Positions 11,235-33,842 of a stretch of DNA of 64,000 nucleotides are shown here, piece after piece (within the stretch, counting starts at the first letter, position 1; every line of letters begins with the position of its first letter). The notes under the pieces were generated by a model. The model worked only from the letters and a program-made list of their open reading frames with translations, was not told where the DNA came from and did not search any database. This DNA comes from Oscillospiraceae bacterium. Lineage in GTDB: Bacteria > Bacillota > Clostridia > UBA1212. Location of the stretch: the NCBI GenBank assembly GCA_015069195.1, contig SVJA01000009.1:1-64000 (forward strand), given 5' to 3'. A program made the translations under genes and the position numbers.

Positions 11235-13604
11235 TTAAATGCTGTTCAGCAATGCCATAACATCAAGTATATTTAATTTGCCCGATGTATTTCCGCTGAG
11301 TGATGTCACTGCAGAAACCTGAGTGTCAGTTAATGTGGCACTACCTCTGAGAGCTGCCATTACCATGCTTGCATCCGCTATTGTAACGGCGCCGTCATCA
11401 TCCACATCACCCTTTACCACCGGATCAGGCTCAACAGGTGTGTCAGTACCGGTGCTTGAGATAACAAAATCGTATGATGCGCTGTCTGCAGCATAATGTA
11501 CATTATTAAGATTTGCAGTATCAGAGCTACCCTTTGCATCATAAGCAACCCAAGCGGTGTAATTTCCTTCCGGAAGAGTTGTTCCGACAGCCGTACCGCC
11601 TGCTGCGCCTGCGGGGAATGTAGCACTGCCGCTTGCAGTTGACGCATATGTATAAAGAAGTGCTTTTCCGTTTCCGGGTGACGTGCCTTCAGCATAGATT
11701 GCGATGAAAGGAATCTGGTTTTGTTTTGTATCCAGATAGCTTGTCAAACCGGAATAGTTAAGTGTAATGCTTTCTCCTACTGCAAACGAAGTCTTATTTG
11801 TAGTGATAGTCGGAGTTGACGGTTTTGATGAATAGAACTTAACAGAACGCAAGTAAAGAATACTGTTTGCCTCTGTGGTTCCGTCAAAGAAGTCAAACCG
11901 AATTGAATTTATATTTCCTGTCCAATTTGAAAGAGCTGATAAATCGATCAGATAGTCATGCCACAATCCGTCATTTTTCCACTGCCAGCCTTTTGCACAA
12001 TCCTCCGTAGCACCTGAAATATTTCCGGCGCAAAGGTACATTCTGGCATTTGTATTTGCAGCAGAAGTTTTTGCAGTTACAACAATATATTTGTATGTAG
12101 AAGCACTGATAGCATCTAACTTTCCGAAATCCATACCGAGTTGAGGATCGTTTGAAGCTTCTGAAGTTACGACAAGACACTTATCTCCGCTTGCATCTGT
12201 ACCGAGTGAGGCACTCGCATCATTAAGGCCGGAATCCGAAATCCACTCTGCAGCACTTGCAGAATCAAATATTATATCATGCGGAGTAATAGAATATGTC
12301 TTAGCACCGGACGGTGAGAAAAGCAATGTTTCCATATGAGTTGTTGTAGTTCCGCTGTTAATTGTTATATTTACAACGTTTGACAAAACTTTACCCGATG
12401 AATTGTACACAAGAACTTTGTAATTTCCGGGAGCGTATGATTTGTAATTTCCGCCTCTGAGCATATAATCAAGACTGTTAGTGTAACCTATCAATGCCCC
12501 TGTGTTCGTATCAGTATCAAGAGCGGCATACTGCATAGCATCATAATAGAAAACCGCTGTATCTTTTGAATATGTTGTTGTACCGGATTTGAACAATCCC
12601 ATATAAGATCCCGGTTCAGCGCCATCAGAACGAACTACGATACCATCACCCCATGCATAAGTCAAAGCTGAAGTGAGAGCTGTGGGAGCTGTCGCAGTAC
12701 CACTGGCAGTAAATGTAACATTAATAGTAGCATTACCTGCAGGCATCGTAAAGTTGTATGAACATGAACCAGTAGCAGATTTTACTGCAATAGAAGTTCC
12801 GTTAACCGTGATAGAAGATACCTTGTAACCTGTAGCAGGTACTGTCCTAAAGAACACGTTGCTTCCGGCTGTAGCCATTCTGCTTGTCTGATCTCCGCCA
12901 AAGAAAACGGCACCTTTACCTGTTATGGAAGGTGAAGCAGTATAGAATGTAGAATTGCAAGCAGCTTTACTGATAAGACAGAAACCGTCTACAATCATAC
13001 GGCTGCTGTCACCGGTAAGTTCAGACGGAGTAAGCCAGCTACCCGATTTTGTTGTAAATCTTGCAGTAAAGTTAGCAGATGAGTCAAGTACAAGGATTCT
13101 GCCTGATGCAGCATCATAACCTGCAAGGCAAATAAAGTGGCTCTGTACGTGTGCTACCGCTACACCGCCTGCAGCAAGATGGTTTATAAGTTCAGGATCA
13201 GTAGCACCGCTTGCTTTCCATCCTTTGTCAACTTTAAATCCATACTCAGCACCAAATCTGGCCTGGAGATTCGGATAAAGCTGCCAACGCCAAGTACCGC
13301 CTTCATAGTAATACTTATTTGCGAAAGCCCAATCAACGAGTGTCTTTATATCAATAAAGTTACCTGTCAGATGATAAATCGCATTAACCGTAGAAACGAT
13401 ACCGCAACCGTTCGGACCTACCTGTGTACCGTCTGTACCGGGCTCGTACCAACCCCAAGCCGGGTCGTTCTGTGCAAAAACATTATACGTGTCAGTCGCC
13501 GCTTCAGACTTCAAAGCAACTTCTTCCGTAAAAGTTCCTGTCGCAAATGCCGTAAAAAGAATACAGCAAGCAAGAACAAAACTTAAAACTCTTTTTGTTT
13601 TCAT
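11235..13604 (-). CDS. Secreted C39-like peptidase with CBM-like modules and C-terminal dockerin
   Basis: This 789-residue exported protein has a signal peptide (1 to about 35) and a papain-fold, C39-like domain (about 40-215) with Cys67 in GPNGCG, His156 in SHFICLAGYD and Asp174 in LVLDSS as the likely catalytic triad. Next come a bacterial (InlB B-type) repeat (about 220-305), an Ig-like segment, a carbohydrate-binding-like module (about 440-600) and another Ig-like module. A type I dockerin (about 728-789) closes it, with Ca2+ loop DVDDDGAVTIAD. The second dockerin loop (NTSGKLNILDV) is degenerate. AGGAGAG precedes the ATG. It is a paralogue of the next, longer gene and probably docks onto a cellulosome-like scaffold outside the cell; its peptide substrate is unknown. 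Confidence 0.85.
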   Translation of the reverse strand: MKTKRVLSFVLACCILFTAFATGTFTEEVALKSEAATDTYNVFAQNDPAWGWYEPGTDGTQVGPNGCGIVSTVNAIYHLTGNFIDIKTLVDWAFANKYYYEGGTWRWQLYPNLQARFGAEYGFKVDKGWKASGATDPELINHLAAGGVAVAHVQSHFICLAGYDAASGRILVLDSSANFTARFTTKSGSWLTPSELTGDSSRMIVDGFCLISKAACNSTFYTASPSITGKGAVFFGGDQTSRMATAGSNVFFRTVPATGYKVSSITVNGTSIAVKSATGSCSYNFTMPAGNATINVTFTASGTATAPTALTSALTYAWGDGIVVRSDGAEPGSYMGLFKSGTTTYSKDTAVFYYDAMQYAALDTDTNTGALIGYTNSLDYMLRGGNYKSYAPGNYKVLVYNSSGKVLSNVVNITINSGTTTTHMETLLFSPSGAKTYSITPHDIIFDSASAAEWISDSGLNDASASLGTDASGDKCLVVTSEASNDPQLGMDFGKLDAISASTYKYIVVTAKTSAANTNARMYLCAGNISGATEDCAKGWQWKNDGLWHDYLIDLSALSNWTGNINSIRFDFFDGTTEANSILYLRSVKFYSSKPSTPTITTNKTSFAVGESITLNYSGLTSYLDTKQNQIPFIAIYAEGTSPGNGKALLYTYASTASGSATFPAGAAGGTAVGTTLPEGNYTAWVAYDAKGSSDTANLNNVHYAADSASYDFVISSTGTDTPVEPDPVVKGDVDDDGAVTIADASMVMAALRGSATLTDTQVSAVTSLSGNTSGKLNILDVMALLNSI

Positions 13605-13813
13605 AGTTCTCTCCTATAAAATATATTTAGTATCAAAATGTTGTTTTTATAATAACATATCTGCAGTTGTAATCTATTGTAAAAATCTTACATAACTTAT
13701 CTTTTTTTTACTTTATTATTTAGAAAATAAGAGAAATCGGCAGCAAACCCTACAAAAGCTTACTGCCGATGTTCCCATTAAGACTTTACTTATTTTTATC
13801 TAAATATATAGTA
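13605..13813. other. Spacer between the two dockerin protein genes
   Basis: About 209 bases of A+T-rich sequence without an ORF. At about 13737-13772 CGGCAGCAAACC...CTTACTGCCG has short arms (CGGCAG/CTGCCG) that may form the terminator hairpin of the upstream, larger gene. The rest should hold the promoter of the shorter gene. Confidence 0.45.
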
Positions 13814-16800
13814 TTATTTAAAAAGTTCCAAAACAACCTGCGCATACAATCTGACAATAAAATCATTCGGATGGTTTACGTTGTTACCTGTCATATCTAC
13901 AAAGCGTTTTCTTGTCAAAAGATATGAGTGAGGAGTTGTGATATCTGCAACCGCGCAGCCGGTTCCTTCGAATGACTCTAAAACAGGTAAATAACTTGCC
14001 TGATTATGACCGGCAGTCCAATCCGGATTAGAAAGCATAGTTGAAAGTAAAATCACTTCGCAATCAGGATTACTTGCTTTTACTGTGTCAATAATACTCT
14101 TAATATTAGATTTATAAGCACTTGTACTGACACTTGCAGAACCGTCATTCATACCGAATCCTATAATAATCAAATCAGGCTTACATGAAGCTGCAGTTGC
14201 TGCCTGAGTAACACCCCACGCCGAATCCATTCCGCCGACAGAAAGATTTGTAAATGATATCTTTGAGCCGTATTCTTTTGTCAATGAATCAGTTACCATC
14301 TTATACCAGTTAGCACTATATGGTGCGGCATTCACAAATTCTGTGGAATTTGCGCCTACCGATATACTGTCTCCCAACAGAACAACATTGAGTGATTCAC
14401 CGGCTTCGAGCTTAGCCATAGTTTTCGGTAACAAATCTGACTTCTGCTCCGGAACTGCACCGGTCCATGTACCGCTTTTTACATATGTAACAGCGAGTTG
14501 CATTTCGTGGAACACAGAACCTTCGGCAAAGTACATATATCCGTGTGCACTATCAGGTTGTGTTGAGGTTGACGACGATGACGGATACATAAAACTGTAG
14601 TCTATTGTGTCTATTGATCCTGTAGGCAAAATCTTGAGCATACCGTTTTCAACAACATAGTCCTTACCTTCGAAATAAATTTTTGTAAAATCTGAACTCT
14701 TTACAGATACAATTTCTTTAATATTGTACATCAACGAAACTGCAGGCACGCTGCCGTCTGAATTTTCAAGAGGCATTACCGATTCGTTGTATATAATATC
14801 GCTTTCCCAATAAGGCTGAGTATATTTATCAAGATCATATTCCATACAATCATCTGTGATAACTTCCGAGTAAACAATTCCGTTAAGAATTGCCATAACG
14901 TCCAATATGTTCATAGAAGATGAAGTATTTTTACTGCACTCTTTTACCGCAGCTTTCTGCACAGCAGAAATTGTAGTATATCCTCTGACAGCAGACAGCG
15001 TCGCAGCAGCATCAGAAACAGTAACCTCACCGTCACAATCAACGTCACCGCTTACAATCATTGTATAAGAAGTTGAACCTGCAGTTACTACCATACCGGT
15101 GGCAATAACAGCATTACTGTCACATTCTTTGCCGTCTTTCTTTATGGTAACACTTGTAACGCCTAATTTTGATTTAATATCAGCAATAGTATCAGAAACT
15201 GTATTTCCGCCGTTACAATAAACCTTTGAACTGTCTGTACGATCAACACAAGTTGCAATCTTACTGAAAGTTACCAAAACTTCAGTATCGGCAGCACCAA
15301 GTACAAAATTATATACGTGGTCAGCACCGTTATTCTCAACAGCAACGCTTACTCCGCCTACCGTAATAGCAGATACTTTATATCCATCAGCAGGAGTTGT
15401 CTGGAAATAAACGGTCGTACCCACTTTCAAAGTACCCTTTACATTTCCGTCACCGAAGTGTACTACACCCTTACCACCGACTGTCTCTGCAGATATTTCA
15501 TAAGTGTCATCAACTATTGTAAAATCATAGCTTGCACTTTGCGCCGCATAGTGAACATTGTTGAGATTTGCTGTCGATGCAGTACCTTTCGCATCATAGG
15601 CAACCCATGCCTGATATTTTCCTGCAGGTAAAGTTTTTCCGTATGAAATTCCGCCCACCGCACCTGCCGGGAATGCTGCACTGCCGCTTGAATTTGTTGC
15701 AAGAGCATAAAGAAGTGCACTGCCGTTTCCGGGTGATGTTCCGTCCGCATATATCGCAATAAACGGAATCTGGTTCTGATTAGTATTGAGATAACTATCG
15801 AGACCGGAATAGTTAAGTGTTATAGACTCTCCTACATTGTAAGAAGTCTTATCAGTAGTAATTGTCGGATTTGACGGTTTTGACGAATAGAACTTTATTG
15901 AGCGGAAATAAAGAGTGCTTCCGGCAGTTGTTGTACCGTCAAAATAATCAAAACGGATGGAGTTAAGATTTCCTGTCCAGTTTGAAAGAGATGAAAGATC
16001 AATCAGATAGTCATGCCACAATCCGTCATTTATCCAATCAACTGAAACTGCACAACTCTCTGTCGGTCCTGTAATAGTACCCGGACAGAGATACAATCTT
16101 GAGTCAATATTATAAGCAGTGGTCTTAGCTGTGATTACCGCATACTTATATGTCGAGGCACTGAGCGTACCTATATCCGAATAATTCATATAAACAAACG
16201 GATCAGATGATGATGCAGAAGTAAGCACCATACAAGTATCACCCTTGTTATCAACACCGAGCGAGACGGTAGTGTCTTTTTTAGTAGCATTTTCTACCCA
16301 GCTTACAGCAGGAGTTGAATCAAATATAATATCGGTTATGTCCTTGATTTCGGCGTCGCTTGCGTCAATTTCAAATGTAACTGAGATTACCGTAGTTTCA
16401 GCTTTCATCGTATACGAATAAATAGCATCACCGCCGTTATTCAATATAGCCTGCTCTACACCGTTTATAGATATCTTTGTAGTTTTATAGCCGGCAGCAG
16501 GTGTCACCTGATAATTGAATGTAGTTCCTGAGTACACATCTGCAGATGTAATATTCGCACCGAAATGCGCTACACCCTGTCCCGATACGATTTTTGTGCT
16601 GACATTATGTATTGTCGGTTCCGTAGTGCTGTTTTCGGCAATTGTAAACTCATATGATGAACTTTCGGCTGCATAATGAACATTGTTAAGATTTATGTCT
16701 TGAGTATCACCCTTACCATCGTAAGCAACCCATGCAGTATACTTACCTGCCGGCAAAGTTGTACCGTATGAAATTCCGCCGAATGCACCTGCAGGGAATG

Positions 16801-19558
16801 TCGCACTTCCGCTTGCAGTTGTTACGTAAGTATAAAGAAGTGCGCTGCCTTTTCCGGGTTCTGTACCGTCCGCATATATTGCGATAAACGGAGTCTGGTT
16901 CTGGTTTGTATTGAGGTAACTTGTAAGACCTGAATAATTAAGAGTTATACTGTCACCTACATTGTACGATGTTTTATTTGTTGAGATTGTCGCACTTGAC
17001 GGCTTTGACGAATAGAATTTTATCGAACGGAAATAAAGTGTACTTCCTGCCGTGGTTGTACCGTCAAAATAATCAAAACGGATAGAATTAAGATTTCCTG
17101 TCCAATTTGAAAGAGATGAAAGATCAATCAGATAGTCATGCCACAATCCGTCATTTATCCAATCAACTGAAACTGCACAACTTTCTGTCGGTCCTGTAAT
17201 AGTACCCGGACAGAGATACAATCTCGAGTCAATATTAGAAGCAGACGTTTTTGCAGTTATAACAATATATTTGTATGTCGATGCACTTAGAGTGCCGATA
17301 TTCGCATAATCCATATTGACGTGCGGGTCATTTGATGCAGATGATGTAAGCACCATACACGAATCCCCTTTATCATCTGTACCGAGCTTTACAGTAGTGT
17401 CATATGCTCCGGAAGCCTCTATCCATGAAGCAGCCGCATCAGAGTCAAAGATTATATCTGTAACATCTTCAATCAGATATACACTTTCGAAAGTTACGGA
17501 AATCACTGTATCTACAGCACCCATAGTATAATTGTATATATAGTCTGCACCGTCATTTTCAACAATCTGCTCTATACCGTTGATTTCTATTCTCGCAATC
17601 CTGTATCCATCCTCAGGTGTCACCTGATAATTAAAATTCTGTCCTGCGACAACAGAAGCAGTTGTTATATTGGCACCAAAATGAGCAACACCTTTTCCTG
17701 CTACAACTTTGGTTGAAACAGTATACAAGGTTGTAGATGATACCTTTGTAAACTTAACAGAAACCACACAATCAGAAGCAGGCATTACAAACTGATAAAC
17801 ACAGTCACCGCCGCCGTTTTGAACATCAACCGCAGTACCGCCTACGGTAATCTGAGATACTATATATCCGGATTTAGGCGTTGTCTGGCAATACACGGTA
17901 GTTCCTGCCTGAACATCCGCAGATGTTGCTCCGCCACCGAAGTGAACACTACCCATACCCGAATCAAATGATGCGCTTAACTTGTAAGCAGACTGAACCG
18001 GCGGAGTTGTCGAACCGCTTGTAGAAACAAATGTTACCGAAACCACCGTATCAGCAGCCGGCATAGTGAAATCGTATACAAAATCTCCACCATTATTTTT
18101 AACTTCTACATCAGTGCCGCCTACGGTTATTTTTGAAACTTTGTAGCCGCTTGCAGGTGTTGTCTGGAAATAAACAGTCGTGCCTGCACTTACAGAAGCT
18201 GATGTTACGTTGTTTCCGAAGTGAACACTACCCTGACCTGACACTACCTGAGCATTCAGACGATGGAAAGAAGTCGGAATGTATTTAAATGTATCAGCAT
18301 GTTTAGATGTTCCTGTAAGAGTTATATTTACAACATTTGACAGAACATTTCCGTTCGCATCAAAGATAAGTACTTTAAAATTACCGGCATTATAGGCCTG
18401 TACATTTCCGCCACGCATCGCACCCTGCATTTCAAATGTATAGCCCAAGACAGTGCCATCAACATTGTAATGCCAGAATTCAGGAACTGAATAATAGAAT
18501 ACTGATGTTTCTTTCGAATAAGTGGTTGTAGATGAAGTAAACATACCTGCATAAGAACCTACACTCGCACTATCCGCGCGCACGACGATAGACTGATCCA
18601 TAGTATATGAAGCAGCAGATGTAAGCATAGAATTTCCGTATGTAGCACCACCTGTAGAGAATTTTACGGAAACATTCGCATTTGCATACGGCATTGTAAA
18701 TGTATATGTAGATGCAGCACCGCCGGCCTGTACGGCAATAGCCGTACCATTTACAGAAACAGATGATACCTTATATCCTGATCCGGGAATTGCACGGAAC
18801 ATCACGGTATCTCCTGCAGCAAACTTTCCTGAAGTGTAATCGTTACCGAAAAATACGGAACCTGATCCTGTTACGGAAGCTGTCGCGGTATAATTTGAAC
18901 AATTTGCAACGGTACTGCTCATAAGACAGTATCCGTCAACTTTCATATAATCACTGTCGCTGGTAAGCTCAGAAGGAGTAAGCCAGTTACCGCATTTTGA
19001 TGTAAATCTTTTTTCAGAATTCGGTGCAGAATCAAGCACAAGAATTCTGCCGGTGGCAGCATCATAACCTGCAAGGCAAATAAAGTGCCTCTTTACGTGA
19101 GCTACCGCAACACCGCCGTTTGCCAAATGATTTATCAATTCAGGATTTGTAGCTTTAGCCGCTCTCCATGTAACAGGAGTTGTAAATCCGTATTTTGCGC
19201 CGAACTTTGCAGCAAGATTAGGATATAATTTATATCGGTTTGAACCGCTGGTACCGTACGCACCGCTGCTGTAAGCCCAATCCGCAAGAGCTTTTATATC
19301 GACACGATTACCATTGAGGAAATACACGGCATTTACGATGGACATAAGTCCGCAACCGTTACGTGCAATCGTAGCACCCGAATTGTGAGTGTTATACGAT
19401 CCCCACGTCAGATCTGTCTGTAAAAATACATTGTAATGTGTCGGTGTAGTCGCAGCCTCAACCTCAAGCGGAGTTTCCGAAGCTCTGAATCCGACATTTA
19501 CAGAAGTAAACACAAGACAAAAAACAAGTAATAAGCTTAGAATTCTTTTCGTTTTCAT
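13814..19558 (-). CDS. Giant secreted C39-like peptidase, repeat, dockerin and SGNH esterase protein
   Basis: About 1914 residues. Order of parts: signal peptide (1 to about 36); C39-like peptidase with Cys69 (ARNGCG), His158 and Asp176; InlB B-type repeat; Ig-like segment; three more bacterial repeats; CBM-like module, Ig-like module, bacterial repeat; a second, very similar CBM-like and Ig-like pair; another repeat; a small domain; a dockerin near 1505-1565 (GDVDCDGEVTVSD, second loop degenerate); and a C-terminal SGNH/GDSL hydrolase with GDSIS (Ser about 1731), GGMDS, GMND and the NHPND His near 1896. Two enzymes, a peptidase and an esterase, are thus joined by binding modules. The dockerin is internal and not terminal. 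The ATG at 19558 has AAAGGG upstream. Probably part of a surface degradative complex; substrates unknown. Confidence 0.86.
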   Translation of the reverse strand: MKTKRILSLLLVFCLVFTSVNVGFRASETPLEVEAATTPTHYNVFLQTDLTWGSYNTHNSGATIARNGCGLMSIVNAVYFLNGNRVDIKALADWAYSSGAYGTSGSNRYKLYPNLAAKFGAKYGFTTPVTWRAAKATNPELINHLANGGVAVAHVKRHFICLAGYDAATGRILVLDSAPNSEKRFTSKCGNWLTPSELTSDSDYMKVDGYCLMSSTVANCSNYTATASVTGSGSVFFGNDYTSGKFAAGDTVMFRAIPGSGYKVSSVSVNGTAIAVQAGGAASTYTFTMPYANANVSVKFSTGGATYGNSMLTSAASYTMDQSIVVRADSASVGSYAGMFTSSTTTYSKETSVFYYSVPEFWHYNVDGTVLGYTFEMQGAMRGGNVQAYNAGNFKVLIFDANGNVLSNVVNITLTGTSKHADTFKYIPTSFHRLNAQVVSGQGSVHFGNNVTSASVSAGTTVYFQTTPASGYKVSKITVGGTDVEVKNNGGDFVYDFTMPAADTVVSVTFVSTSGSTTPPVQSAYKLSASFDSGMGSVHFGGGATSADVQAGTTVYCQTTPKSGYIVSQITVGGTAVDVQNGGGDCVYQFVMPASDCVVSVKFTKVSSTTLYTVSTKVVAGKGVAHFGANITTASVVAGQNFNYQVTPEDGYRIARIEINGIEQIVENDGADYIYNYTMGAVDTVISVTFESVYLIEDVTDIIFDSDAAASWIEASGAYDTTVKLGTDDKGDSCMVLTSSASNDPHVNMDYANIGTLSASTYKYIVITAKTSASNIDSRLYLCPGTITGPTESCAVSVDWINDGLWHDYLIDLSSLSNWTGNLNSIRFDYFDGTTTAGSTLYFRSIKFYSSKPSSATISTNKTSYNVGDSITLNYSGLTSYLNTNQNQTPFIAIYADGTEPGKGSALLYTYVTTASGSATFPAGAFGGISYGTTLPAGKYTAWVAYDGKGDTQDINLNNVHYAAESSSYEFTIAENSTTEPTIHNVSTKIVSGQGVAHFGANITSADVYSGTTFNYQVTPAAGYKTTKISINGVEQAILNNGGDAIYSYTMKAETTVISVTFEIDASDAEIKDITDIIFDSTPAVSWVENATKKDTTVSLGVDNKGDTCMVLTSASSSDPFVYMNYSDIGTLSASTYKYAVITAKTTAYNIDSRLYLCPGTITGPTESCAVSVDWINDGLWHDYLIDLSSLSNWTGNLNSIRFDYFDGTTTAGSTLYFRSIKFYSSKPSNPTITTDKTSYNVGESITLNYSGLDSYLNTNQNQIPFIAIYADGTSPGNGSALLYALATNSSGSAAFPAGAVGGISYGKTLPAGKYQAWVAYDAKGTASTANLNNVHYAAQSASYDFTIVDDTYEISAETVGGKGVVHFGDGNVKGTLKVGTTVYFQTTPADGYKVSAITVGGVSVAVENNGADHVYNFVLGAADTEVLVTFSKIATCVDRTDSSKVYCNGGNTVSDTIADIKSKLGVTSVTIKKDGKECDSNAVIATGMVVTAGSTSYTMIVSGDVDCDGEVTVSDAAATLSAVRGYTTISAVQKAAVKECSKNTSSSMNILDVMAILNGIVYSEVITDDCMEYDLDKYTQPYWESDIIYNESVMPLENSDGSVPAVSLMYNIKEIVSVKSSDFTKIYFEGKDYVVENGMLKILPTGSIDTIDYSFMYPSSSSTSTQPDSAHGYMYFAEGSVFHEMQLAVTYVKSGTWTGAVPEQKSDLLPKTMAKLEAGESLNVVLLGDSISVGANSTEFVNAAPYSANWYKMVTDSLTKEYGSKISFTNLSVGGMDSAWGVTQAATAASCKPDLIIIGFGMNDGSASVSTSAYKSNIKSIIDTVKASNPDCEVILLSTMLSNPDWTAGHNQASYLPVLESFEGTGCAVADITTPHSYLLTRKRFVDMTGNNVNHPNDFIVRLYAQVVLELFK

Positions 19559-19708
19559 AAGTTTCCCTTTCGTATGATATAAACATAATGTAATAATAAA
19601 CACATAACTACCATGATTATAACATATAGAAAGACATATCGAACTATAATTTTCTTACACACTTTGTCTTTTTTTTACTATTCATACGTATCTCACATTC
19701 TTTCATAG

Positions 19709-25065: not shown

Positions 25066-26115
25066 TTACGAAGACTCTTTTGCAGAAGGCATAAGATAAT
25101 ACTTAATCAAAACCTTTCGTCTGTAATCGCAATCACCGTCAAAACCCATCATATCGCCGCACAACGTATACGCGGAAGCTGCACAGCCTTTTCCGCAAAT
25201 AGAACGCACCAAACATCTCTTACAACCGTAGTCCATCTCTGTACGCGCAATAAGCGTCTGTCTCATCGTCTCCGCTTCTTTTATTATCGCACTTAAATCA
25301 AAATCATGCAATATGCCGAGCGAAAATTTTTTATCATACAGACCCTGACACGGGTAAATATCACCGTAAGGAGTCACACACAGATTGAATTTATTCTTTC
25401 TGTCCGTAAGCGCACATTTTATCGTACAAAAAGGAGCCGGAATATTTTCTATCTTTCTTTTTTTATATTCATCAATGATTACTGTCAAAGATTCAAGTCT
25501 CTGTGAATCATTTAATGAAATTTCTTCCCATATTTCGTTTGCATTTCCGTGCTTTGAAGTATACGAAAAGGTCGGTGTTGCATTATGCTCCTCCGCGAAA
25601 TCAAAATACTCTTTTATGTTATCTCTGTTAAACGGAGCAACAACCATATGAAAATACGGTTTAACTTTAGGTTTTATCGCAGCAATATTCTTCATCGTTA
25701 TGTCAAATTTGCCTTTGCCCCTCATTTGGTCATGAATTTCCGCACATGTACCGTCAATACTGTACTGAACAGTCACGTGGTCATTATTTTCAAGAAGTTC
25801 TTTTAAACGCTTATTTCCGGTAGTTCCGTTTGTAATTACAGTAAATTTGATATGCTTCATTCTTTCAATCATATCACATACTTCATTCCATCTCGTGTGC
25901 ATCGTCGGTTCACCACCCGAAATAGAAAAAGACTTTGCGTCACAATTTTCATAAAGCATTGTTATAAACTTTTCCAAATCCTCGGGAGTTATCTCACATG
26001 TAGTGCAATTAAGTCCCGAAGCATTGTAGCAATCTCTGCAATTAAGGTTACAACGGTTTGTTATCTCTATGTATGCACCGCTTATCTCGCTGTCTTTTAT
26101 TTCATTCTCTGCCAT
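25066..26115 (-). CDS. Radical SAM/SPASM protein, putative peptide maturase
   Basis: The 349 residues begin with a radical SAM core whose cluster motif is C22-N-L-N-C26-R-D-C29, followed by the GGEPT motif in SISGGEPTMHT. A C-terminal SPASM-like Cys region includes CVTPYGDIYPC, CKRC and SICGKGC. Such proteins usually hold extra Fe-S clusters and modify ribosomally made peptides or proteins. It is the third gene after a PqqD-like and an S26-like peptidase gene, with 21 bases to the latter. That makes RiPP maturation the best inference. There is no obvious precursor gene nearby, so an enzyme-maturase role (anSME-like) is the main alternative. Confidence 0.85.
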   Translation of the reverse strand: MAENEIKDSEISGAYIEITNRCNLNCRDCYNASGLNCTTCEITPEDLEKFITMLYENCDAKSFSISGGEPTMHTRWNEVCDMIERMKHIKFTVITNGTTGNKRLKELLENNDHVTVQYSIDGTCAEIHDQMRGKGKFDITMKNIAAIKPKVKPYFHMVVAPFNRDNIKEYFDFAEEHNATPTFSYTSKHGNANEIWEEISLNDSQRLESLTVIIDEYKKRKIENIPAPFCTIKCALTDRKNKFNLCVTPYGDIYPCQGLYDKKFSLGILHDFDLSAIIKEAETMRQTLIARTEMDYGCKRCLVRSICGKGCAASAYTLCGDMMGFDGDCDYRRKVLIKYYLMPSAKESS

Positions 26116-26136
26116 AAATCATTTTGCTCCCATTTA

Positions 26137-26466
26137 TTAACTTTCTTTTATTACCCTTGCAAGACAATATTTTTCCGGAATCAGTTCGCACGCATCCGAA
26201 TTATCGCCCTTGATTTTGTATATGACACCTTTATCATTCACAATAATTTCAACAACTCTATGTATCAAAAGCCTGCAAGGATCATCAATAGCTATTATAA
26301 TATCGCCGATTTCGTACCGAGGCGCGGTTTCTACCATAACCTTGTCACCGGCGTAATACGTCGGCTCCATACTGAAACCGCGTATCTCAATCGTATTATC
26401 AAATTTAATTTGTCTGAGAAATATCGTTTTCAAAATATTTTTCTCACTTATATTTTCGATACTCAT
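26137..26466 (-). CDS. S26-type (SipW-like) Ser/His peptidase, short form
   Basis: Only 109 residues, with the signal peptidase core: EIRGFSMEPTYYAGDKV (nucleophile Ser in SMEP), GDIIIA and LLIHRVVEI, then IKGDNSDACE. The HRVVEI His replaces the Lys of bacterial-type enzymes, as in ER/SipW-type signal peptidases. Unlike SipW there is no membrane helix, so it is probably cytosolic. The PqqD-like gene ends seven bases upstream. It may remove a leader from a modified peptide; that role is inferred from context only. An S24-like regulator is less likely because there is no DNA-binding domain. Confidence 0.75.
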   Translation of the reverse strand: MSIENISEKNILKTIFLRQIKFDNTIEIRGFSMEPTYYAGDKVMVETAPRYEIGDIIIAIDDPCRLLIHRVVEIIVNDKGVIYKIKGDNSDACELIPEKYCLARVIKES

Positions 26467-26473
26467 TTATGTA

Positions 26474-26743
26474 TTACACAGCCTCTTCTATAATTTTTTT
26501 ATTTATCAAAGTCTGTGTAAATGCGGATACACCCTCTGAAATTTCACCGGATTCCGCATCGAACTCCGCCGCAATTTCAGAAACTGCCTCATCAAGTGTC
26601 ATACCCATACCGACAGTATTTAAAACAGCAGTCGCCGCAACATCTAATATATGGGACTCTCCGCTTTCAACATCAAAACAAATAACAGTATCCTCTCCGT
26701 CTACCTTTGTTACTTCAATATTGTTGCAAATTTTGTATTTCAT
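26474..26743 (-). CDS. PqqD-like RiPP recognition protein (cassette A)
   Basis: This 89-residue protein has the PqqD winged-helix pattern: an N-terminal beta hairpin (TVICFDVESGESHILD), a helix with AATAVLNTV and a C-terminal helical pair around LDEAVSEIAAEFD. PqqD domains bind leader peptides and present them to modifying enzymes. It is the first gene of cassette A, with GGAG before the ATG and a promoter-like TATAAT about 45 bases upstream. Its partner is most likely the radical SAM protein two genes on. Confidence 0.8.
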   Translation of the reverse strand: MKYKICNNIEVTKVDGEDTVICFDVESGESHILDVAATAVLNTVGMGMTLDEAVSEIAAEFDAESGEISEGVSAFTQTLINKKIIEEAV

Positions 26744-29768: not shown

Positions 29769-29928
29769 AATCAATCTCCAAGAACTCAATGGTTTTATCA
29801 TAACCTAAAATTTATTCTATCATAAAAAAAACATATCGCAAGCTGAAATATTTTGAAATTTATGTTGCAAGCTTTTTACCGGCAAGTTATTATATTTATA
29901 TGTAATAACACAGTGAGGTTTGCATATT

Positions 29929-31701
29929 ATGCCATATGACGGTATCGTTGCCTCGGGAGTTGTCTGGGAGCTTTCCGGACTTCTGTCGGGCGGAAGAATA
30001 GAAAAGATTTATCAGACCGAGCAGGACGAAATTATCCTGCTTTGTCACTCTATGCGAGAAAAATACCGTCTGCTCTTAAGTGCAAGCCCGGCAAACCCAA
30101 GAATACATCTGACAAAACAAAAAAAAGAAAATCCTGCTTTTGCCCCACCGTTTTGTATGGTTTTGAGAAAGCATATCCAGGGCGGAAAAATATCAGAGAT
30201 TACACAAGAAGGCTTTGACAGAGTTATAAGTATAAAAATTGATACCTATAACGAAATGGGTGACCCTATCGAAAAAAAACTCATTATAGAGATTATGGGC
30301 AGACACAGCAATATTATGCTTGTAAGTCCCGGCGGAGTCATCTACGATGCCATAAAGCACATCGACAGTTCAATGAGCAGTCTGCGAGAAGTACTCCCTG
30401 CTCATCCTTATGTATTACCGCCGCAACAAGACAAGATTTCTCCGAATGACAAACGTCTGATTTTGGAATTTACAACACGCGATATTCCGGAAGATTTCAA
30501 AGGTAGTATGTCATCTTATCTTTTGGAAAGCATAAGCGGTTTCAGCCCCCTGCTCTGCAAAACCATTTGCAACAAAGCAGGCGTATCTCCGCAAAACCCG
30601 GCAAGGCTTCTTTCACAAGAAGAAAAAAAGCTTGTTTTCAATGAGCTCATTAATGTTTGCGATCATATCGCCGGACATATGTACAGACCGGCGGTGATAA
30701 TCGACGACCCGACCGCCGGAAATTATGAAGCGGTTGACTTTCATTGTTTAGATACAGTATTCGATAACTTTAAAGTTAAAAATTTCAGTTCGATAAATCT
30801 TATGCTCGATGAGTTTTATACACAAAAAGATATTGTCGAAAGAAGCAGACAGAAAAAATCTTCGATAAAAAAACAACTTTCAAACGCTGTCTCACGAGCA
30901 GAAAAAAAGCTACAGATTTATGACAGTGCTTTACGTGAATCAGAAAACTTTGATAATTTAAGGATCAAAGGCGAACTTATTACGGCAAATATGTATATAC
31001 TAAAGGGCGGAGAGAGCTCGATAGACGTTGTGAATTATTACTCCGATTCCGGAGAAATATTAAGTATCGAACTTGATAAAAACAAGTCCGCTGCTGCTAA
31101 TGCGCAGATTTACTATAAAAAATACAAGAAAAAGAAAAGCACATATGAAAATGCATTGCAGTCTCTTAAAAAATGCTCGGAAGAGCTTGCGTATCTCAAA
31201 AGCGTCGAAGAGCACCTCGAAAGCTGTGTAGAAAGTGCCGACATTGCAGAAATAAAAGAAGAACTTTCAGAGCAGGGATATTACGGTTTAAGGCAAGAGA
31301 ATAACCGAAAAAGTTCAAAAAAAAATACAACAAAAATTGCAGAAGGTTCGCCGATTTCTACTTTTACAACCGACGGATATGAAATATTGATAGGTAAAAA
31401 CAACAAACAAAATGATACATTGACATTAAGGACGTCAAATCCCAATGACCTTTGGTTCCATGTAAAAGATGCTCCGGGTTCGCATGTAATCCTGAGAATT
31501 TCACAGAAAGACTGCATCATAACAAATAAAGCCGTGACTGAAGCAGCCATAGAAGCAGCTCGCCACAGCAGTCTTAAAAGTTCATCTAAGGTGGAGGTCG
31601 ATTATACACGAGTAAAGTATGTAAAGAAACCGAGCGGGGCAAAGCCCGGTAGAGTTATCTATACAAACCAAAAGACTATTATCGTTTCACCAAATACTTG
31701 A
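29929..31701 (+). CDS. rqcH: Rqc2 homologue RqcH (NFACT protein)
   Basis: The ribosome quality control factor of bacteria; it binds stalled 50S subunits and directs alanine tailing of nascent chains for degradation. About 590 residues: NFACT-N (PYDGIVASGVVWEL, SPGGVIYDAIKHID), a helix-hairpin-helix-like part, a long coiled coil (about 280-440) and NFACT-R (about 470-590) with DLWFHVKDAPGSHVIL. Older names call it a fibronectin-binding protein. The ATG at 29929 follows GTGAGG. It is one of few plus-strand genes and its 3' end overlaps the converging S26-like gene by 23 bases. Confidence 0.93.
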   Translation: MPYDGIVASGVVWELSGLLSGGRIEKIYQTEQDEIILLCHSMREKYRLLLSASPANPRIHLTKQKKENPAFAPPFCMVLRKHIQGGKISEITQEGFDRVISIKIDTYNEMGDPIEKKLIIEIMGRHSNIMLVSPGGVIYDAIKHIDSSMSSLREVLPAHPYVLPPQQDKISPNDKRLILEFTTRDIPEDFKGSMSSYLLESISGFSPLLCKTICNKAGVSPQNPARLLSQEEKKLVFNELINVCDHIAGHMYRPAVIIDDPTAGNYEAVDFHCLDTVFDNFKVKNFSSINLMLDEFYTQKDIVERSRQKKSSIKKQLSNAVSRAEKKLQIYDSALRESENFDNLRIKGELITANMYILKGGESSIDVVNYYSDSGEILSIELDKNKSAAANAQIYYKKYKKKKSTYENALQSLKKCSEELAYLKSVEEHLESCVESADIAEIKEELSEQGYYGLRQENNRKSSKKNTTKIAEGSPISTFTTDGYEILIGKNNKQNDTLTLRTSNPNDLWFHVKDAPGSHVILRISQKDCIITNKAVTEAAIEAARHSSLKSSSKVEVDYTRVKYVKKPSGAKPGRVIYTNQKTIIVSPNT

Positions 31702-32152
31702 TTTTTATTTTTAAATTTCGATAAAACTTTCTGAAAATCCGTGTTTTTACCCAAAGCACGGATTTTATTTTATATGAAGCAGAATTGCAGAAATATCTCT
31801 TTCCGTCTCTTATGTAAGCATCCATAACGGCAATTATGTTTTCTTTAGGAATACCTTTTTCGATTTCTGTCTGGTTATCACCGCAAAAATCAAATTTATC
31901 TCCGTGTATCGCCACTATTCTATGAAGTACTACACCGCCGCTCTGTCTTACATAAAAAGCGACATCATAAATTGACGGTTCATCAGATTTTTTGAGAAGT
32001 ACCGTATCTTTCCCGTCTTTCAAAAAAGGAAGCATACTTTTTCCGGAAACCTTTAAAAAAAACATTCCGCCGTCATCAACAACATTTTTGACGTCGGAAA
32101 CATATTCTGAAATATTCTCTTTTATTGTGATTTCATATTCTTTAAAGTCCAC
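31679..32152 (-). CDS. S26-type Ser/His peptidase (cassette B)
   Basis: From the GTG at 32152, 157 residues. The core reads VSGKSMLPFLKDG (nucleophile Ser), YDVAFYVRQSG, VVLHRIVAIHGDKF and FCGDNQTE, a signal peptidase/S26 pattern with His in place of Lys, as in SipW-type enzymes. There is no clear membrane helix; the last 40 residues are very basic and could bind membrane or nucleic acid. GGAG lies six bases before the GTG, which is one base after the PqqD stop, so the two genes are tightly coupled. The longer reading to 32194 uses TTG and overlaps PqqD. Related in kind to the cassette A peptidase. Confidence 0.75.
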   Translation of the reverse strand: MDFKEYEITIKENISEYVSDVKNVVDDGGMFFLKVSGKSMLPFLKDGKDTVLLKKSDEPSIYDVAFYVRQSGGVVLHRIVAIHGDKFDFCGDNQTEIEKGIPKENIIAVMDAYIRDGKRYFCNSASYKIKSVLWVKTRIFRKFYRNLKIKIKYLVKR

Positions 32153-32153
32153 T

Positions 32154-32423
32154 TTAATCTCCAAAAACACCGTGAGGAAGAAGTTTATCAACAAAGGATT
32201 TTACATAACCCATAGCTATTTCGTATTCGATGTCAAACTCTTTTGAAATTTTTTCGGCAACATTCTCCATAGCAGTATCTTCTTTGAAACACTCCCAAAG
32301 ATACACGGCAGATTCATTTTTAAGAGTTATCATGCCATTCAAATTTTTTGCCGCCGCACCTACCGGCACAACCACATTTTTACCGGCTATATTCTTCAGT
32401 AAGAAATTTTCATTTATTTTCAT
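32154..32423 (-). CDS. PqqD-like RiPP recognition protein (cassette B)
   Basis: About 89 residues from the ATG at 32423, which has GGGAGA eight bases upstream. The sequence has the standard PqqD layout: FLLKNIAGKNVVVPVG, NLNGMITLKNESAVYLWECF and a helical end with VAEKISKEFD. It would bind a leader peptide for a modifying enzyme. It sits between the kinase-like and peptidase genes with spacers of about 17 bases and one base. Confidence 0.86.
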   Translation of the reverse strand: MKINENFLLKNIAGKNVVVPVGAAAKNLNGMITLKNESAVYLWECFKEDTAMENVAEKISKEFDIEYEIAMGYVKSFVDKLLPHGVFGD

Positions 32424-32440
32424 AAAAACATCTCCCGTTT

Positions 32441-33157
32441 TCAACAATTTTCATTAAGATATTCCCACGCGCACTTTGCACTATCAATTTTCGGTGTGCA
32501 CTTCATCACAAATACAGGTACACATTTTAAAAGTCGGTCAATCAAATCAAATTGCACTTCTGCCCTCTGCATACTTATGCAGTGAAGAACTTGCGGCATT
32601 ATTCTTTCGACAGCGTCTTTACCGCTGATTCTTTCTATTGAGAAAGTATCTCCTCTTTCTAAAAATACAACCGCCGAAACGTTTGCACATTGGTTTGTAC
32701 TTTCATCCGTTTTACCGCTCCACGGAGTTCCGTATACGGTAAATCTCCCATTTTTGTACATTATCGCCGGTTTATCATCATTTAAAACAGTGGCGCGACT
32801 CCCGAGATAATCTTTCCACAATGCAACATGAGTAGATTTTCCCGTTCCGCTGTTTGCAGTAAACAAATAACCTTTTCCGTCTACCGCAACACATGAAGAA
32901 TGTAACATAAATCCTTCAAAAGATATAAGTTTCTGGTAAAAATCCATACCCGACAAAAAATACTCTGCATAATCACGATCAAAAGTTCTGTTTATTTCCA
33001 AGGTTTTTTCTATACGAGAATCGCTGACTTTTATCTCAATATCAGCAGCACCGTCAAAATCGTTTTCGTACTTCAACCCGTTCCTTTTAAGCACTTCGGA
33101 TGAATGCGTAACCAAAACGTTTAAATCTGCAATTTTATATCGGTAATTACGCTTCAT
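32441..33157 (-). CDS. HPr-kinase-like (HprK-fold) protein
   Basis: About 238 residues with a P-loop at 102-109 (NSGTGKST), LNDDKP at about 125-130 and GTPWSGK at about 143-149. This set is found in HPr-kinase-like proteins that accompany PqqD genes, some of which phosphorylate peptides in lasso-type RiPP pathways. The classical HprK C-terminal signature is not seen, so HPr itself is an unlikely substrate. The ATG at 33157 follows GGGGGA; the reading to 33175 starts with TTG. It is 25 bases after rpe, so it is probably read from the long priA-rpe operon. Confidence 0.8.
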   Translation of the reverse strand: MKRNYRYKIADLNVLVTHSSEVLKRNGLKYENDFDGAADIEIKVSDSRIEKTLEINRTFDRDYAEYFLSGMDFYQKLISFEGFMLHSSCVAVDGKGYLFTANSGTGKSTHVALWKDYLGSRATVLNDDKPAIMYKNGRFTVYGTPWSGKTDESTNQCANVSAVVFLERGDTFSIERISGKDAVERIMPQVLHCISMQRAEVQFDLIDRLLKCVPVFVMKCTPKIDSAKCAWEYLNENC

Positions 33158-33182: not shown

Positions 33183-33830
33183 TCAGGCGTTCTTTATTTT
33201 ACGGATTGTTTCCGCCATATCTACGGCTTTGTATACCGCTGAACCTGCAACCAATATATCCGCACCGGCATAGGCTGCTTCTTTGGCAGTTTCGGCATCT
33301 ATTCCTCCGTCAACTTCTATATCAAAAGACAGTCCTGACTTTGCGCGGAATTCTTTCAACTGTTTTATCTTCGGTGTAACCGAATGAATATATGACTGTC
33401 CTCCGAAGCCGGGATTTACACTCATAACAAGCACCATATCTACATCGGCAAGCACATCTTCTATAACATCAACGGGAGTTGCGGGATTTATAGACACACC
33501 AACCTTAACATCCAACGCCTTTATCTGCTCTATAACAGCCTGCAAGTCCGTACAAGCTTCTGCATGAACAGTTATAATATCAGCACCCGCATTTTTGAAA
33601 TCCGCAATATATTTTTCCGGATTTTCTATCATAAGATGTACATCAAAAGGCAAATCGGTAGCTTTTCGCACACATTTTACAACCGGTGCACCAAAAGTAA
33701 GATTCGGTACAAAATGGCCGTCCATAACGTCAATATGTATCAAATCTGCACCTGCAGTTTCAACTTTTTTTATTTCATCGCCGAGAACTGAAAAATCTGC
33801 CGACAATATCGAAGGAGCAACTTTATTCAC
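33183..33830 (-). CDS. rpe: Ribulose-phosphate 3-epimerase
   Basis: Interconverts ribulose-5-phosphate and xylulose-5-phosphate in the pentose phosphate pathway. The TIM-barrel motifs APSILSADFSVLGDE, HIDVMDGHFVPN, DVHLMIENPE, MSVNPGFGGQ and EVDGGI are all present with the metal-binding His and Asp. The GTG at 33830 has GAGG six bases upstream; the TTG at 33842 does not. Coupled to rsgA, as commonly seen in Firmicutes. Confidence 0.96.
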   Translation of the reverse strand: MNKVAPSILSADFSVLGDEIKKVETAGADLIHIDVMDGHFVPNLTFGAPVVKCVRKATDLPFDVHLMIENPEKYIADFKNAGADIITVHAEACTDLQAVIEQIKALDVKVGVSINPATPVDVIEDVLADVDMVLVMSVNPGFGGQSYIHSVTPKIKQLKEFRAKSGLSFDIEVDGGIDAETAKEAAYAGADILVAGSAVYKAVDMAETIRKIKNA

Positions 33831-33842
33831 CCTACACCTCAA

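Follow-up and report, generated by a model that had tools for sequence, protein, structure and literature searches.

In lasso peptide systems, HprK-like kinases phosphorylate the linear precursor (PMC10368454, PMC8498205). In the bsf system, the linear precursor carries a YxxPxL leader, and the PqqD protein BsfB1 assists its phosphorylation by the HprK-like kinase as well as the removal of the leader (PMC10368454); for pseudomycoidin, a nucleotidyltransferase reportedly attaches hexoses to the phosphate group (PMC8498205). The phosphorylated and phosphoglycosylated lasso peptides (paeninodin, pseudomycoidin, and bsf) resemble the system described here in their HprK-like kinase, PqqD (B1), and, in some cases, a nucleotidyltransferase, which act with a YxxPxL-leader precursor (PMC8498205, PMC10368454); a similar leader motif occurs in the peptides of relatives. 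The lasso systems differ in that our locus encodes a Ser/His signal-peptidase-like enzyme, with neither a cyclase nor a transglutaminase-like B2 peptidase seen, and in that the peptides of the relatives are dispersed and paired with secreted-protein genes.

Several other described families show partial likeness to the same locus. The best NCBIfam match of its kinase is ScmC of the SynChlorMet system (TIGR04249, E 5.8e-6), and its PqqD protein weakly matches ScmD (TIGR04248), but these scores reach 25.8 bits vs. a cut-off of 125 and 15.5 vs. 100, respectively, and the trio is without a radical SAM enzyme. The HPr-rel-A system also pairs an HprK-related kinase with PqqD; however, its kinase model TIGR04352 gives 14.2 bits vs. 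a cut-off of 200, and our PqqD has no TIGR04353 match at E<=0.1. HPr kinase/phosphorylase and PEP carboxykinase share the fold, the P-loop, and the Asp-Asp motif with our kinase, but identity in the structure matches is low (about 13–18% for HprK/P) and the hpr-ser model scores 13.3 bits vs. a cut-off of 240. SipW and the archaeal-type signal peptidase I have the same Ser/His pair and the GxSMxP and GDN boxes as our peptidase, while the latter reaches the cut-off of none of the named signal peptidase models, has no obvious membrane span in its sequence, and neighbours a PqqD gene.

The locus lies in a stretch of 64,000 nucleotides from an Oscillospiraceae bacterium (contig SVJA01000009.1; hereafter, the window), where genes for a kinase, a PqqD protein, and a peptidase follow rpe on the minus strand. 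We consider it probable that this trio makes up the linked part of an RRE-guided system of four enzymes for peptide modification, acting in trans (kinase, PqqD, peptidase, and an NTP_transf_5 protein), and that dispersed peptides, found in related gut bacteria, are its likely substrates along a PqqD–kinase–NTP_transf_5–peptidase route. Our confidence in the identity of the system is fairly high.

Table 1. Features of the rpe-linked locus in the window, with the evidence for each.
Feature	Coordinates	Strand	Evidence
HprK/PEPCK-fold kinase (predicted), 238 aa	32441..33157	-	P-loop NSGTGKSTH, NDD, GTPWSGK; AF2 model; Foldseek; G001 orthologue
PqqD-family (RRE) peptide-binding protein, 89 aa, ATG 32423	32154..32423	-	Pfam PqqD; dN/dS
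Soluble S24/S26-type Ser/His peptidase, GTG start 32152	31679..32152	-	Pfam Peptidase_S24; invariant Ser39, His77
rpe, ribulose-phosphate 3-epimerase	33183..33842	-	TIGR01163 293.9 bits; gene order
rqcH/NFACT, flanking gene outside the system	29920..31701	+	Pfam NFACT_N E 4.7e-139
Terminator-like hairpin for rqcH	31734..31766	+	14-pair stem, then T-rich tail

On the minus strand, the three genes lie where the preliminary description had placed them, and the identities and operon position that it gave proved right. rpe is the last housekeeping gene ahead of the trio, and 25 bases separate its stop (33183) from the kinase ATG (33157), a gap in which a sequence scan of the coding strand found no terminator-like site. 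The peptidase GTG at 32152 stands one base past the PqqD stop. Ribosome-binding sequences support the starts of the kinase (GGGGGAA ahead of the ATG) and the peptidase (GGAG ahead of the GTG). rqcH is convergent with the trio, its 3' end overlapping that of the peptidase gene by 23 bases, and the terminator-like hairpin of rqcH sits within the peptidase gene 3' end; the convergent overlap is also present in the sister genome (G001) and in the related genome G002. All three genes of the trio are conserved in G001 at 63–70% identity (65% for the kinase orthologue). Comparison with this genome indicates purifying selection on PqqD (dN/dS 0.06) and the peptidase (dN/dS 0.24), and the kinase (dN 0.29, with dS saturated) is read in the same way.

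The kinase has no Pfam match above the cut-off, and its AlphaFold model (pLDDT 94.5, from a 12-row alignment) finds HprK/P (1kkl, E 2e-6) and PEPCK as the best Foldseek matches. Together with the motifs already noticed in the preliminary description (NSGTGKST, LNDDKP, and GTPW, here seen as ANSGTGKSTH, LNDDKP, and GTPWSGK), the model predicts an HprK/PEPCK fold with a P-loop plus an Asp-Asp pair, and the P-loop and the conserved Asp motif are retained where partner genes occur. PqqD matches the Pfam PqqD model (28.6 bits vs. a cut-off of 23.4), and the peptidase matches Peptidase_S24 above its cut-off (27.8 bits), with the catalytic Ser in GxSMxP and a conserved His, Ser39 and His77 being invariant in 16 homologues. 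A PqqD/RRE protein is encoded together with modifying enzymes, as in RRE-guided RiPP systems. The preliminary description missed the fourth enzyme, and no precursor was found in the locus.

The overlooked fourth partner is NTP_transf_5. The order kinase–PqqD–peptidase, often followed by NTP_transf_5, occurs in many genomes; in several relatives, NTP_transf_5 lies behind the peptidase gene or is fused to it, a natural peptidase–NTP_transf_5 fusion being seen in L048. In the window genome (G000), the single NTP_transf_5 gene is unlinked to the trio and lies on contig C5 after ddl and murI, the same place that it occupies in G001 and G002. Among the 58 genomes surveyed, it was detected in 29 of the 30 with an intact kinase vs. 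7 of the 28 without (Fisher p 7e-9); the 30 are the 34 genomes with a kinase homologue less G004, G005, G007, and G008, which have the P-loop-less form only. The seven genomes with NTP_transf_5 and no intact kinase count against the four-enzyme reading.

Upstream of the kinase gene in seven loci (L038, L043, L060, L062, L064, L066, and L067), we found short open reading frames with strong ribosome sites, whose products share the start MKxYxxPx[IVL]E[IV]xxFxxEDVITxSG, with a short tail of variable sequence behind it. These belong to a family of peptides of 31–60 aa with the leader [YF]xxPx[IVL]E[IV]xxFxxEDVITxSG, similar to the lasso RRE motif Y(-17)xxPxL(-12), and dispersed copies number up to about 18 per genome by the refined model. 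This family is previously unnamed: the Pfam and NCBIfam models had no match to the peptides tested, and a text search for the leader motif found no relevant paper in the literature library searched. At E<=0.01, the refined model detects peptides in 27 of the 30 genomes with an intact kinase and in none of the 28 without (p 1.6e-13). Since its training set was drawn from kinase-bearing genomes, the first model represents the cleaner test; at E<=0.05, and with the eight training genomes excluded, it gives 13/22 vs. 0/28 (p 1.4e-6). Contrasts within families agree with this picture (G003 and G006 vs. G004, G005, G007, and G008; G013 vs. G015). One scan of genome contigs with peptide patterns yielded three loci only. 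Two weak leader-model matches were rejected on reading, one in G000 (E 0.56), a TTG frame without the motif, and one in G005, antisense to a larger frame.

In the window genome and its sister G001, no peptide was recognised with three models, nor was one seen in the targeted stretches of G000 that were read directly. Within the window, the short frames with ribosome sites near the trio, near a second PqqD cassette, and behind two large secreted-protein genes (11235–19603) included no precursor. The close relative G002, which carries the same rpe-linked trio, does have a canonical peptide (L181), and the gene ahead of it exceeds 2,200 codons; the match of the first model in this genome does not look real, the peptide there being L181. 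Either the substrate has diverged in the genus of the window or the trio acts there on something else.

Of the peptide genes, 47 of 65 start within 80 nt of where an upstream gene on the same strand ends, and mostly they lie 14–45 nt behind genes for large secreted proteins. By a crude hydrophobicity rule, signal-peptide-like starts occur in 21 of 27 complete upstream genes vs. 102 of 507 in the background. Both sets of counts are partial, as the upstream gene is truncated in several short flanks. Domains found in the upstream proteins are LamG, PKD, Ig-like, cleaved-adhesin, and dockerin, while others have no known domain. Gene order alone points to a tie between the peptides and secreted proteins. 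In the window, the two large secreted proteins at 11235–19603 have dockerin-like ends and related N-terminal regions, and no leader peptide was found behind their genes; similar secreted proteins are encoded near NTP_transf_5 on contig C5 (L211 and L212).

Concerning the genomic position, a kinase homologue was found in 34 of the 58 genomes (the window genome included), among them all nine of its family. In eight of these nine it directly follows rpe, and in the remaining one (G006) the contig stops short of the rpe position, with rqcH following as in the others. The preliminary description had called for a survey of how often the trio follows rpe and would have taken its absence from all close relatives as evidence against it; the full order of rpe, kinase, PqqD, and peptidase was found in the genus of the window (G000 and G001) and in G002, so that two close relatives carry the trio and this objection does not hold. 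In genus g3 (six genomes), the kinase homologue stands alone between rpe and rqcH with its P-loop lost, and PqqD and the peptidase are both missing from this locus. These P-loop-less versions (L071–L076) mostly keep their length, one pair showing a dN/dS of 0.14, and may have a non-kinase role. Two of the six, G003 and G006, carry another kinase gene at a different site; that of G006 has an intact P-loop and adjoins PqqD and a peptidase homologue. No kinase was found behind rpe in the genomes sampled from other families of the order or class; thus, placement behind rpe is characteristic of the family and not general. A single origin of the rpe-linked kinases was neither shown nor rejected by the tree (AU p 0.23).

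For the mode of action of the proposed system, in which our confidence is moderate, we infer all chemical steps by analogy with the lasso precedents. PqqD would bind the YxxPx[IVL] leader and present the peptide to the kinase, which may phosphorylate a Ser or Thr residue of it; NTP_transf_5 would then transfer a nucleotide or a sugar onto the phosphate, and the peptidase would remove the leader, presumably cleaving near VITxS/G. The product is probably a tag, an anchor, or a maturation factor for a secreted protein. More tentatively, one can suggest a companion system for surface proteins, in which tiny RRE-addressed peptides are encoded behind large secreted proteins and one central set of kinase, PqqD, Ser/His peptidase, and nucleotidyltransferase modifies all these peptides in trans to give a phospho-linked tag or anchor; this is possible, but we would not yet rely on it. 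The almost perfect co-occurrence of enzymes and peptides across many related families suggests an unstudied type of peptide modification, linked through gene order with large secreted proteins, and makes the peptides concrete candidates for what HprK-like kinases and NTP_transf_5 enzymes may act on outside the lasso peptides.

Since an HprK-like kinase, PqqD, and a nucleotidyltransferase are all known as lasso tailoring partners, and the YxxPx[L/I/V] leader motif is found in the peptides too, the trio might be regarded as the tailoring remnant of a lasso cluster, its cyclase and B2 having been lost or located elsewhere. However, the B2 leader peptidase (PF13471) is absent from G000, G001, and G002 and stays below the cut-off in 58/58 genomes, with a control genome positive, even though 30 of the 58 have an intact kinase. 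Of the Asn_synthase (PF00733) matches in G000, one is full-length, in a 634 aa frame, and the others are short fragments; no lasso cyclase was seen among these matches, and the peptides are without the consistent ring pattern (Gly1 with Asp/Glu at 7–9). We rejected lasso membership of the trio on the absence of PF13471, with no cyclase seen among the PF00733 matches of G000; its derivation from a lasso cluster is largely refuted and very improbable. The comparison with lasso kinases made in the preliminary description retains its value as a fair mechanistic lead, because in lasso systems the kinase does act on the linear precursor, with help from PqqD in bsf, but the locus itself is not of the lasso type, lacking PF13471 and having a signal-peptidase-like enzyme in place of B2.

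The lack of a recognisable peptide in G000 and G001 and the fixed housekeeping-operon position across the family would also agree with a regulatory role of the trio, in which PqqD recruits a host protein by its YxxP-like N-terminus for phosphorylation by the kinase, much as HprK acts on HPr, the system having been re-purposed, or its substrate having diverged beyond recognition, in this genus. A 107 aa protein of G012 and G014 with the leader-like start MKMYEKPKLRFEEI, encoded directly before the kinase, may be named in favour of such a role. It is nevertheless an unlikely explanation, as PqqD and the peptidase are retained under purifying selection, which fits a cleaved substrate, and the canonical peptide of G002 coexists with the same rpe-linked trio. 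The loss of the P-loop in six g3 genomes, with PqqD and the peptidase gone from the locus, could alternatively be seen as the end stage of a decaying, functionless relic held in place by the operon structure. This appears the least probable of the readings considered: in the genus of the window, all motifs are kept and the three genes are under purifying selection, and even among the g3 versions most keep their length and one pair has the dN/dS of 0.14 given above. The four-enzyme system modifying dispersed peptides in trans is the interpretation that we prefer.

PqqD genes also occur in other surroundings. On the minus strand of the window at 25066–26743, a second cassette comprises PqqD (26474–26743), a small S26-like protein (26137–26466), and a radical SAM/SPASM protein (25066–26115); no precursor was found beside it, and G001 (L037) has its PqqD and S26 genes as well. 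Loci L069 (G014) and L070 (G012) link both cassette types, as they contain two PqqD genes, a radical SAM gene, the 107-aa protein mentioned above, a kinase homologue, and two S26-like proteins. Finally, a radical SAM/SPASM protein of the window genome (L092 6402–7784, on G000:C17) has a weak N-terminal PqqD-like match and resembles the SCIFF-type maturases.
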